Below, in pieces: positions 7,019 through 9,800 of a DNA stretch of 26,638 nucleotides (its first letter is position 1; the number at the start of each line of letters is the position of its first letter). This DNA comes from a virus. The translations under genes and the position numbers were made by a program. Where the stretch lies: positions 1 through 26,638 of the IMG/VR virus record IMGVR_UViG_3300034374_005200. One strand, given 5' to 3'. The notes beneath the pieces are model-generated. The model ran no database searches and was not told the DNA's origin. It saw only the letters and a program-made list of their open reading frames with translations.

Positions 7019-7750
7019 ATGAATAGAGTTTTATGTTGGTTTTCTTGTGGCGCTGCAAGCGCATATTCAGCAAAACTAGCTATTGAAAAATACGGTGATT
7101 TGGTTGAGGTTGTTTATTGCGATACTTTGAAATACGAACATCCAGACAATTTAAGATTTATGCACGATTGTGAGAAATGGTTCGGGAAAAAAATTGAATT
7201 AATTCGCTCTACAAAATACTCAGATATTTATGATGTATTTGATAAAACGGGGTGGCTAGTCGGACCAGCAGGAGCAAGATGTACTACAGAGCTAAAGAAG
7301 TTGGTTAGGAGGAAATATCAAAAAGAAGATGATTTGCATATTTTTGGTTACACGGTCGAAGAGTCGAATAGGAAACATCAGTTGATGATTGGTGAGCCTG
7401 ACCTTAAATGCGAGTTTCCTTTGATTGAAAAGGGAATAACAAAACGAAATTGTTTGGAGGCACTTTATAGTGCAGGAATTGAGATTCCTGCTATGTATAG
7501 GCTAGGCTACCCTAATAACAACTGTATTGGATGTGTAAAGGGTGGCGCTGGATATTGGAACAAGATCAGATTCGATTTTCCTGATGCTTTTGAAAAGATG
7601 GCAAAACAAGAACGGAAAATGAATGTCGCAATTAACAAAAGAATGGATGGCGAAAAAAGGATTCCAATTTTTTTGGATGAACTTCCTGTCAATATGGGCA
7701 GGATTGAATCGGAACCAAACATTGAGTGCGGTGTGTTGTGTCTTAGTTGA
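7019..7750 (+). CDS. PAPS-reductase/ATP-pyrophosphatase-like phage protein
   Basis: 243 residues. An S-C-G-A-A-S-A loop at 9-15 replaces the S-G-G-K-D-S-type PP-loop. YCDTLKYEHPDN (33-44) and GARCTTELKK (85-94) are further family blocks. NNNCIGCVKGGAGYWNKIR (from residue 166) adds C169 and C172. This is the phage branch usually labelled phosphoadenosine phosphosulfate reductase; members are thought to adenylate or activate a substrate, and several relatives act in nucleic-acid sulfur chemistry. The actual substrate is unknown. It is more AT-rich than the XF1762-like and methyltransferase genes downstream, and is bounded on both sides by the 25-base direct repeat. Confidence 0.75.
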   Translation: MNRVLCWFSCGAASAYSAKLAIEKYGDLVEVVYCDTLKYEHPDNLRFMHDCEKWFGKKIELIRSTKYSDIYDVFDKTGWLVGPAGARCTTELKKLVRRKYQKEDDLHIFGYTVEESNRKHQLMIGEPDLKCEFPLIEKGITKRNCLEALYSAGIEIPAMYRLGYPNNNCIGCVKGGAGYWNKIRFDFPDAFEKMAKQERKMNVAINKRMDGEKRIPIFLDELPVNMGRIESEPNIECGVLCLS

Positions 7751-7758
7751 CGCAACAT

Positions 7759-7783
7759 ACGCAGCGAGTAGGCTTACTTTTGG
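7759..7783 (+). repeat. Direct repeat copy 2, boundary between two accessory genes
   Basis: Same sequence as copy 1 over ACGCAGCGAGTAGGCTTACT plus TTTGG. It again lies in frame with the following ATG (7797), coding A-A-S-R-L-T-F-G. It sits nine bases after the stop of the PAPS-reductase-like gene. Confidence 0.9.
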
Positions 7784-7796
7784 GAGGAAAGAAACA

Positions 7797-8252
7797 ATGG
7801 GCCATAAACTTTTTGTGACCCCCATTGATTTTGCAGAGGCAAACGCTTTTGTTGCCCGATTTCATCGGCATCACAAGCCTATGCCTGGTGTTAAGTTTTG
7901 CGTGGCGGTCAGTGACGAAAATCATTTGGTGCGTGGCGTGGCAATGGTTGGAAGGCCGGTGGCGAGAAACAGCGACAACGGAATGACTCTTGAGGTCAAT
8001 CGCTGCTGCACTGACGGAGCAAAAAATGCGTGCTCAATGCTGTACGGTGCGGCATGGCGGGCGGCAAAGGCTCTCTGATACCAACGCCTTATCACCTACA
8101 CTCTGCCAGCAGAGGGCGGGGCAAGTTTAAGAGCAGCTGGCTGGAAGTTAATCGGGGAAAGAGGTGGCGGAAACTGGAATTGTAAAAGCAGGCCGCGTGT
8201 TGATACCGCTGAATATCTGCGGGGTCAAAAACTACTTTGGGAGGCTAAATGA
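7797..8252 (+). pseudogene. XF1762-like phage protein gene interrupted by an in-frame TGA
   Basis: ATG 7797 with GGGAGGAAAG upstream. The reading gives 93 residues, with FVARFHRHHKPMPGVKF, VGRPVARNSDNGMTLEVNR and NACSMLYGAAWRAAKAL, then TGA at 8076-8078. The same frame continues 57 codons (YQRLITYTLPAEGGASLRAA, GWKLIGERGGG, SRPRVDT, KLLWEAK) to a proper TGA at 8250-8252. Together this is the full family, which normally has Gly at the stop position (GGA to TGA is one base change). Other genes here end in TGA, so general recoding is excluded. A nonsense mutation, a sequencing error or stop read-through remain. The family resembles GNAT-like phage proteins of unknown role. Confidence 0.8.
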
Positions 8253-8811: not shown

Positions 8812-8896
8812 GGGCGAGTGGTGAAATTGGTAGACACAAGGGACTTAAAATCCCTCGGCGCAAGCCATGCCGGTTCGATTCCGGCCTTGCCCACCA
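8812..8896 (+). tRNA. tRNA-Leu (anticodon UAA)
   Basis: 85 bases with 3' CCA encoded. Acceptor GGGCGAG pairs with CTTGCCC (one G-T). The D-arm contains TTGGTAGAC. The anticodon stem AGGGA/TCCCT encloses CTTAAAA with TAA at 8846-8848. The long type II variable arm (GGC-GCAA-GCC) fits leucine. The T-arm is GCCGG-TTCGATT-CCGGC, discriminator A. It lies inside the plus-strand early operon and would be cut out of the mRNA. It reads UUA and UUG codons, which an AT-leaning phage may use more than its host. Confidence 0.97.
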
Positions 8897-8907
8897 TAGG
8901 AGAAACC

Positions 8908-9054
8908 ATGAAACTGACCTACGAAGACATCGAGACCTTGAGAGATACATTAGTATTTAAGCTGCCAATTGATCCTGAAGAAGCAAACATACTGTGCGAT
9001 ATGGCAGCAAGAAGTCTTGATCTTGAATATGAATTAGAGGATTCAAGTGAATGA
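8908..9054 (+). CDS. Small acidic protein between tRNA and methyltransferase
   Basis: 48 residues from ATG 8908, with AGGAG at 8898-8902. An open frame extends back through the tRNA but is spurious there. The protein is helical and acidic (EDIETLRDTLVFKLPIDPEE; ends ELEDSSE). Its last bases overlap the methyltransferase GTG at 9047. Unknown function. Confidence 0.6.
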   Translation: MKLTYEDIETLRDTLVFKLPIDPEEANILCDMAARSLDLEYELEDSSE

Positions 9055-9787
9055 GCTGGCTCTTTTCGCGGGCGCTGGTGGCGGAATACTTGGGGGAAAA
9101 CTTCTCGGATGGCGAACAGTCTGCGCCGTTGAGTGGGAGCCATATCCAGCAAGCGTTTTGTGCGCCCGACAAAATGACGGCCTTCTCCCGCCTTTCCCGA
9201 TTTGGGATGACGTACAAACCTTTGACGGCAGACCGTGGCGAGGAATTGTTGACGTTATATCTGGCGGATTTCCGTGCCAAGACATCAGCATTGCAGGAAA
9301 AGGTGCCGGAATCGACGGCACCCGATCAGGCATGTGGTCCCACATGGCGCGGGTGGTTGGCGAAGTACGACCCCGATTCGTATTCGTGGAAAACAGCCCA
9401 ATGCTCGTTAATCGAGGACTCGGGCGAGTGCTTGGAGACCTTTCCGCGCTCGGGTATGACGCGAGATGGATTGTTATGGGAGCTGCCGATGTTGGAGCAA
9501 ACCACCAGAGGGATCGAATCTGGATTGTCGGAAAAATGGCCTACGCCAAATGCGGGAGAGGCCAAGCAATCAAGCAATTTGGTTCGGAAAGCAGAACGGC
9601 GGGTGATTCATGCGGCAAAAGGCGTTCATCTTCAGGAATCTTTGACGGAGCGAGTTGGTGGCAAGCTGAACCCAACGTGGGTCGAGTGGCTGATGGGGTG
9701 GCCGCTAGGGTGGACAGACTTAAAGCCATTGGTAACGGTCAAGTCCCATTGTGTGCAGCAACAGCCTGGAAATTACTCGGAGAATGA
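9047..9787 (+). CDS. C5-cytosine DNA methyltransferase
   Basis: 246 residues from GTG 9047. Motif I LALFAGAGGG (4-13) binds SAM. Motif IV SGGFPCQDIS carries the catalytic Cys at residue 77. Motif VI is ENS (115-117), motif VIII QRDR (154-157), motif X AIGNGQVP (227-234). All catalytic blocks are present. The region between VIII and IX (about 165-205) is short and low in complexity, so the target-recognition domain is minimal, as in many small phage enzymes. It would methylate cytosine in phage DNA, probably to escape host restriction. No partner restriction enzyme is present. The gene is GC-rich relative to neighbours and overlaps genes at both ends. A second long frame covers it entirely. 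Confidence 0.92.
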   Translation: MNELALFAGAGGGILGGKLLGWRTVCAVEWEPYPASVLCARQNDGLLPPFPIWDDVQTFDGRPWRGIVDVISGGFPCQDISIAGKGAGIDGTRSGMWSHMARVVGEVRPRFVFVENSPMLVNRGLGRVLGDLSALGYDARWIVMGAADVGANHQRDRIWIVGKMAYAKCGRGQAIKQFGSESRTAGDSCGKRRSSSGIFDGASWWQAEPNVGRVADGVAARVDRLKAIGNGQVPLCAATAWKLLGE

Positions 9788-9800
9788 GAATGGAATTTGA
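9051..9800 (+). CDS. 249-codon frame fully overlapping the methyltransferase gene (+1 frame)
   Basis: ATG 9051 to TGA 9798-9800, open for the entire length of the methyltransferase. Residues 1-50 look like a shadow, but from about residue 53 the translation has recognisable blocks: MTYKPLTADRGEELLTLYLA, WLAKYDPDSYSWKTAQCSL, ETFPRSGMTRDGLLWELP, KWPTPNAGEAK and LNPTWVEWLMGWPLGWTDLK. I recall closely similar stand-alone annotated proteins in other phages, often near cytosine methylase genes. That similarity may reflect real dual coding, or only conservation imposed by the methylase frame. It has no separate ribosome site beyond that of the GTG four bases earlier. Confidence 0.4.
   Translation: MSWLFSRALVAEYLGENFSDGEQSAPLSGSHIQQAFCAPDKMTAFSRLSRFGMTYKPLTADRGEELLTLYLADFRAKTSALQEKVPESTAPDQACGPTWRGWLAKYDPDSYSWKTAQCSLIEDSGECLETFPRSGMTRDGLLWELPMLEQTTRGIESGLSEKWPTPNAGEAKQSSNLVRKAERRVIHAAKGVHLQESLTERVGGKLNPTWVEWLMGWPLGWTDLKPLVTVKSHCVQQQPGNYSENENGI

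Follow-up and report, generated by a model that had tools for sequence, protein, structure and literature searches.

Several C5-methyltransferases are assembled from more than one chain. M.EcoHK31I of E. coli, which recognises YGGCCR, is a two-polypeptide C5-methyltransferase, and M.AquI (CYCGRG) is also split; in C5-methyltransferases, motif IX sits in the small domain. In work by Lee, Kam and Shaw in 1995, the small polypeptide of EcoHK31I is reportedly encoded in an alternative frame within the gene of the large one, and both polypeptides are said to be needed in vitro. The larger polypeptide of M.EcoHK31I holds motifs I-VIII and X and the smaller one motif IX, while in M.AquI one polypeptide carries motifs I-VIII and a second one the remaining motifs (PMC3404938). 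An out-of-frame HNH insertion, 'ShiLan', has also been described within a phage methylase gene, where it is mobile and sporadically distributed (PMC11855218). No report of a phage-wide overprinted split methylase was found in the open literature, most subscription papers lying outside that search.

Layout of the locus and content of the two frames

The window, meaning the whole stretch of DNA analysed, corresponds to a 26,638-base phage contig from IMG/VR. The preliminary description had pointed out two long open frames with starts four bases apart; both were confirmed, with frame 2 (F2) extending for 249 codons over the methyltransferase gene (frame 1, F1). F2 lies on the same strand at an offset of +1, its ATG being 4 bases past the F1 start. 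The peptide blocks and overlays described there were likewise correct, GGFPCQ lying under LADFRAKT and VDRLKAIGN of F1 under WTDLKPLV of F2. The features are as follows:

9036..9040, + strand: Shine-Dalgarno-like AGAGG, read from the sequence, 6 nt 5' of the F1 GTG and 10 nt 5' of the F2 ATG
9047..9787, + strand: F1, GTG start, 246 aa; C5-cytosine methyltransferase catalytic polypeptide (alpha-like)
9051..9800, + strand: F2, ATG start, 249 aa; putative overprinted partner polypeptide (beta-like / specificity)
9272..9280, + strand: F1 motif IV, catalytic PCQ, from the translation; (near-)invariant in F1 alignments and overlaid by F2 LADFRAKT
9357..9494, + strand: F2 core (YDPDSYSWKTAQCSL...FPRSGMTRDGLLWEL), conserved in the split and single-chain classes
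9531..9665, + strand: doubly variable region, from alignments; F1 is of low complexity there, with pLDDT < 50
9666..9716, + strand: F2 motif IX (LNPTWVEWLMGWPLGWT), near-invariant in F2; the homologous segment of L275 aligns to M.HhaI 268-307
9725..9748, + strand: F1 motif X (AIGNGQVP), near-invariant in F1

F1 matched Pfam DNA_methylase (2.8e-31) over residues 4-163, where the match ends, and PHROG 363 (2e-67). Motifs I, IV, VI, VIII and X were present, with FAGAGG, GGFPCQ, ENS, QRDRIW and IGNGQVP near-invariant in alignments. Its predicted fold (AF2 and Foldseek, with rows from phage records left out of the AF2 input alignments) was a catalytic Rossmann domain matching M.HaeIII and M.HhaI over about 167 columns only, that is, about 167 of the 327 residues of M.HhaI. 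Neither a motif IX nor a target-recognition small domain was found on the F1 chain by Pfam, AF2/Foldseek or alignments, and residues 176-231 were predicted to be disordered (pLDDT < 50). The earlier remark that the low-complexity recognition region of F1 appears to be shaped by F2 agrees with this low pLDDT and with the LPTP cassettes that relatives carry there in the F2 frame.

F2 matched PHROG 1008 ('DNA methyltransferase', category other) at 3e-27, and its relatives matched down to 1e-102; no significant match was obtained against Pfam, NCBIfam or PDB. Its AF2 model was poor (pLDDT 58.8), and Foldseek returned no structural relative for it. The most conserved block of F2 in alignments was LNPTWVEWLMGWPLGWTDL. 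A search of viral contigs with FVEWMMG gave at least 120 stretches, of which 75 were F2-type, F1 lying in the -1 frame, and 31 belonged to single-chain methylases in which motif X follows immediately. One of these single chains, L275, matched Pfam DNA_methylase over its full length, and its block aligned to M.HhaI 268-307 (RKLHPRECARVMGYPDSY..QFGNSVV), in a second domain that scores low alone and is collinear with the strong first one. The L275 block thus aligns to motifs IX-X of M.HhaI, and therefore the conserved block of F2 is, by alignment, motif IX.

Other genes lie close to the overlapping pair. A Mom-like DNA modification protein (PHROG 1384, 9e-26) is encoded close 5' of it at 7623-8078 (+); the Mom-like domain begins at residue 60, so the true start of this gene is probably near 7800. 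Beside it, the frame at 7019-7750 (+) matched PHROG 424 (phosphoadenosine phosphosulfate reductase family), and a tRNA-Leu (anticodon taa) is located at 8812-8896 (+), about 150 bases 5' of the pair. Judging from its gene content, two systems of DNA modification appear to be present in the phage, the Mom-like one and the putative split methylase.

Coding status, initiation and selection of the second frame

Viral contigs were scanned with F2 and separately with F1, which yielded at least 160 loci, many of them on shared contigs; after phage records were added, the homologue set comprised 114 distinct F1 genes. The loci found with F1 served as a guard against selection bias from F2 similarity, the two sets overlapping, and all locus frequencies given here describe samples from similarity or pattern scans. 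The null model permuted synonymous codons within each gene, which leaves the F1 protein and its codon usage unchanged.

F2 was open in 110 of the 114 C5-methyltransferase homologues, compared with 0.2 open genes expected under this permutation, as the shuffles produced about 5 frame-2 stops per gene. When F1 of the window was shuffled in the same way, a mean of 4.7 frame-2 stops appeared, and the frame stayed open in just 0.08% of shuffles. The scattered stops that the preliminary description had associated with a non-coding frame did not occur: a single stop was observed over 111 aligned homologues, against about 606 expected, and none within F2 residues 1-100, against about 155 expected in these 111 genes. 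Significantly long frame-2 runs (p ≤ 0.05) were found in 98% of window-type genes and in 3-12% of neighbouring genes, and ordinary neighbouring genes showed no excess of frame-2 openness, matching the prediction of the null. The F2-profile score had a median of 54.6 bits in real genes of the single-chain class vs 9.1 in synonymously shuffled ones, and of 77.1 vs 23.7 bits in the divergent split class. F2 is a real gene and not a codon-bias shadow. Of the two possibilities raised beforehand, the extreme shadow ORF was thus ruled out by three nulls (permutation, neighbouring genes and F2-profile score), and overprinting with a methylation partner gained support.

At 112 of the 114 loci the F2 ATG was placed exactly +4 relative to the aligned start of F1. 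At 26 loci the aligned F1 codon was not a start, F1 beginning further upstream, and the F2 ATG was still present; most of the listed cases of this kind had a Shine-Dalgarno-like site (GGAG type) inside F1, directly 5' of the F2 ATG. Such a motif preceded the F2 ATG in 89 of 112 homologues, compared with 13% of random positions; both starts of the window follow a single AGAGG.

In a +1 overlap, any substitution at a third position of F1 falls on a second position of F2. Among pairs that were 74-82% identical, F1 differences at positions 1, 2 and 3 were 0.211, 0.134 and 0.308, respectively. The pos3/pos1 ratio was therefore 1.46 in this range and 1.33 at 82-90%, compared with 2.3-2.8 (70% and 77% bins) and 3.65 (84% bin) in neighbouring genes. 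Sites that are synonymous in F1 were thus constrained rather than free to alter F2, which had been the expectation for a shadow. The overlapping-frame substitution check proposed earlier did find purifying selection on F2: dNN/dNS was 0.66 (0.49 at 82-90%) vs 0.84-0.88 (0.67) in controls, and SN/SS was 0.37 (0.32 at 82-90%) vs 0.56-0.87 (0.66). By region, constraint was strongest at motif IX (pos3/pos1 0.95), followed by 1.38 in the F2 core, and third-position constraint was weak over F2 residues 1-100 (2.4-2.65). The dual-frame pattern was absent in neighbouring control genes. From the position-ratio, dNN/dNS and SN/SS patterns relative to these controls, purifying selection acts on both F1 and F2, in F2 chiefly in the C-terminal 60%.

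Variants, cassettes and distribution

The partition of motifs between the frames differed among relatives. In the Paraburkholderia locus L245, F1 ends directly after motif VIII, and F2 holds WPTP cassettes together with motifs IX and X. In the Arthrobacter phages KBurrousTX, DrYang and Jamun, one gene encodes motifs I-VIII and a second gene, in the +1 frame, encodes the F2 core, several LPTP cassettes, IX and X. Gordonia phage Sedona has a single frame of 608 aa with I-VIII, LPTP cassettes, IX and X, and the other frame holds a 100-aa F2 core with one cassette. Across these relatives, the cassettes and motifs IX and X thus shift from one frame to the other. Sedona also contains an annotated LAGLIDADG endonuclease (1068-1844 of its locus), an out-of-frame insertion inside the methylase region of motifs I-VIII.

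In relatives the LPTP cassettes lie where the recognition domain of the enzyme belongs, as in Sedona, where they stand in the TRD position. They vary in number, with up to nine seen, and cassettes that are nearly identical turn up in different genes; F2 of the window has a single WPTP cassette, with its first base at 9537. From these sequence patterns we infer that the cassettes may be exchangeable recognition modules. Cassette pairs picked by F2-frame similarity had an F2-coded look (73% vs 44% identity), this choice of pairs being biased. In pairs picked by DNA similarity, neither frame dominated (0.137, 0.294, 0.257), so no claim is made that cassettes are coded in F2 only.

Of 29 single-chain methylases whose F1 frame already includes motif IX, 28 still encoded an F2 core in the +1 frame, most of them with cassettes, and therefore F2 does more than supply motif IX. 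Most simply, this additional job would be that of carrying recognition modules. In members of this class such as L275, L287, L353 and L328, the F2-like core of the +1 frame starts at internal ATGs, e.g. MSDTxGxTS.

In a scan of one genome per bacterial species, this overlap turned up at 80 or more loci, and most of them shared the +4 start; the genomes included Pseudomonas, Acinetobacter, Bradyrhizobium, Verrucomicrobiales and Patescibacteria bins. E. coli PT62 had two overlapping loci, annotated in F1 only. At one of them (L490, 232-1218) the methylase is a second C5-methyltransferase, a divergent one; its +1 frame stays open for more than 300 codons and contains WPTP and a motif-IX-like sequence, QLNPAHSRWLMGLP; this frame is unannotated in RefSeq. 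Two further loci, in Pseudomonas sp. QTF5 (L188) and a Burkholderiaceae bin (L228), had one in-frame F1 stop with F2 open, and are possibly decayed prophage copies or sequencing errors.

The statement that F2 is separately annotated in some phages was borne out by phPA-G and XFactor, in addition to the match to PHROG 1008. In the pattern scan no F2 core was found without an overlapping F1, all 118 of the 118 matches listed overlapping it; F2 as a free-standing gene elsewhere was thus not encountered among these matches. The confinement to methylase genes that had been foreseen as a mark of a shadow is therefore real, and it is explained if F2 is a subunit of that methylase.

Weighing of explanations and comparison with known systems

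The reading that we favour, with a probability of roughly 78%, is that the locus is a naturally split C5-methyltransferase of the M.EcoHK31I kind, with two polypeptides encoded on the same DNA. F1 would make the AdoMet-binding catalytic domain with motifs I-VIII and X. F2 would initiate independently 4 bases later, probably from the ribosome-binding site of F1, and would act as the small-domain/specificity partner, contributing motif IX and, presumably, that part of the small domain which recognises the target. Both chains are expected to assemble in trans into a site-specific methyltransferase, each being required for activity, and the enzyme may mark phage DNA against host restriction. Counting against this reading are the poor F2 model with no structural relative, the weak third-position constraint over F2 residues 1-100, where stops are nonetheless absent, and the presence of an F2 core in single chains that already possess motif IX. 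The more specific proposal, that F2 is the overprinted, exchangeable specificity subunit of a large phage and prophage clade of C5-methyltransferases, with LPTP cassettes as its target-recognition modules, is given even odds.

The alternatives differ in how much of the above they account for. F2 could be a separately acting protein, e.g. an anti-restriction or restriction-like partner, overprinted by happenstance and not part of the enzyme. This is unlikely, even though the F2 core is conserved beyond a shadow where F1 is a complete-looking single chain with IX and X, and no homologue of F2 was detectable among solved structures, because motif IX is on F2 and absent from F1, the F2 of several relatives carries both IX and X, and the core never occurred without an overlapping methylase among the matches listed. 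F2 is thus probably not an unrelated anti-restriction protein. Programmed frameshifting, which would join motifs I-VIII of F1 to the C-terminus of F2 as one chain and leave the rest of F2 as a by-product, finds its best case in KBurrousTX, DrYang and Jamun, where a +1 shift near the end of F1 gives the canonical order of I-VIII, cassettes, IX and X. However, the start codon and Shine-Dalgarno sequence of F2 are conserved, its core is conserved upstream of any sensible shift site, and in the window a single frameshift would lose motif X, which remains in F1; we consider this mechanism quite improbable. Hardly credible at all is a non-coding frame whose openness would follow from the amino acids and codons that F1 uses: F1 does show high conservation, and its motifs dictate part of the frame-2 reading (VEN gives W-K-T), but permutations that preserve protein and codon usage introduce about 5 stops per gene, shuffled genes reach F2-profile scores of 9-24 bits vs 55-77 for real ones, and neighbouring genes behave as the null predicts.

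If the split-enzyme reading holds, both halves of one enzyme would share the same bases, and the pair would belong with the longer and more widely distributed cases of same-strand overprinting, selection being measurable in both frames. Double coding of this gene recurs across many phages and bacterial genomes, where as a rule only one of the two products is annotated. The split would account for the many phage 'methyltransferases' that appear truncated and have a recognition region resembling junk, and a methylase cloned or annotated from one frame alone may be inactive or without specificity. If F2 is also the specificity subunit, most cassettes would be located in frame 2 of the catalytic gene, and many single 'DNA cytosine methyltransferase' annotations would represent two-protein enzymes whose missed subunit sets the sequence recognised. 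The locus could serve as a test system for the co-evolution of two constrained proteins on one sequence and for phage changes of methylation specificity.

Among phage loci, F2 resembles ShiLan in being an extra protein read out of frame inside a methylase gene, but it covers the catalytic domain of the methylase itself and was present in nearly all genes sampled; the LAGLIDADG endonuclease insertion of Sedona resembles the ShiLan insertion (PMC11855218). The PHROG 1008 label is silent on mechanism and does not hint that its members are read from the second frame of a methylase gene. An AquI-type partition, with IX and X on the second polypeptide, occurs in relatives (L245, L368, L369 and L370), as seen in L245 and the pairs of KBurrousTX, DrYang and Jamun. 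The window differs from M.AquI, since its motif X is on F1 and its genes overlap completely. By motif partition it is like M.EcoHK31I, with I-VIII and X on F1 and IX on F2; its F2 lies in an alternative (+1) frame that is open and selected, a feature reportedly shared by EcoHK31I. It differs from M.EcoHK31I in that F2, starting 4 bases past the F1 start, covers the gene in full, and in that relatives carry variable F2 LPTP cassette arrays at the recognition-domain position, whereas the predicted TRD of EcoHK31I is on the large subunit. By analogy, the locus in the window would work like M.EcoHK31I, as a variant with full-length overprinting and, in its relatives, cassette arrays in the second frame.
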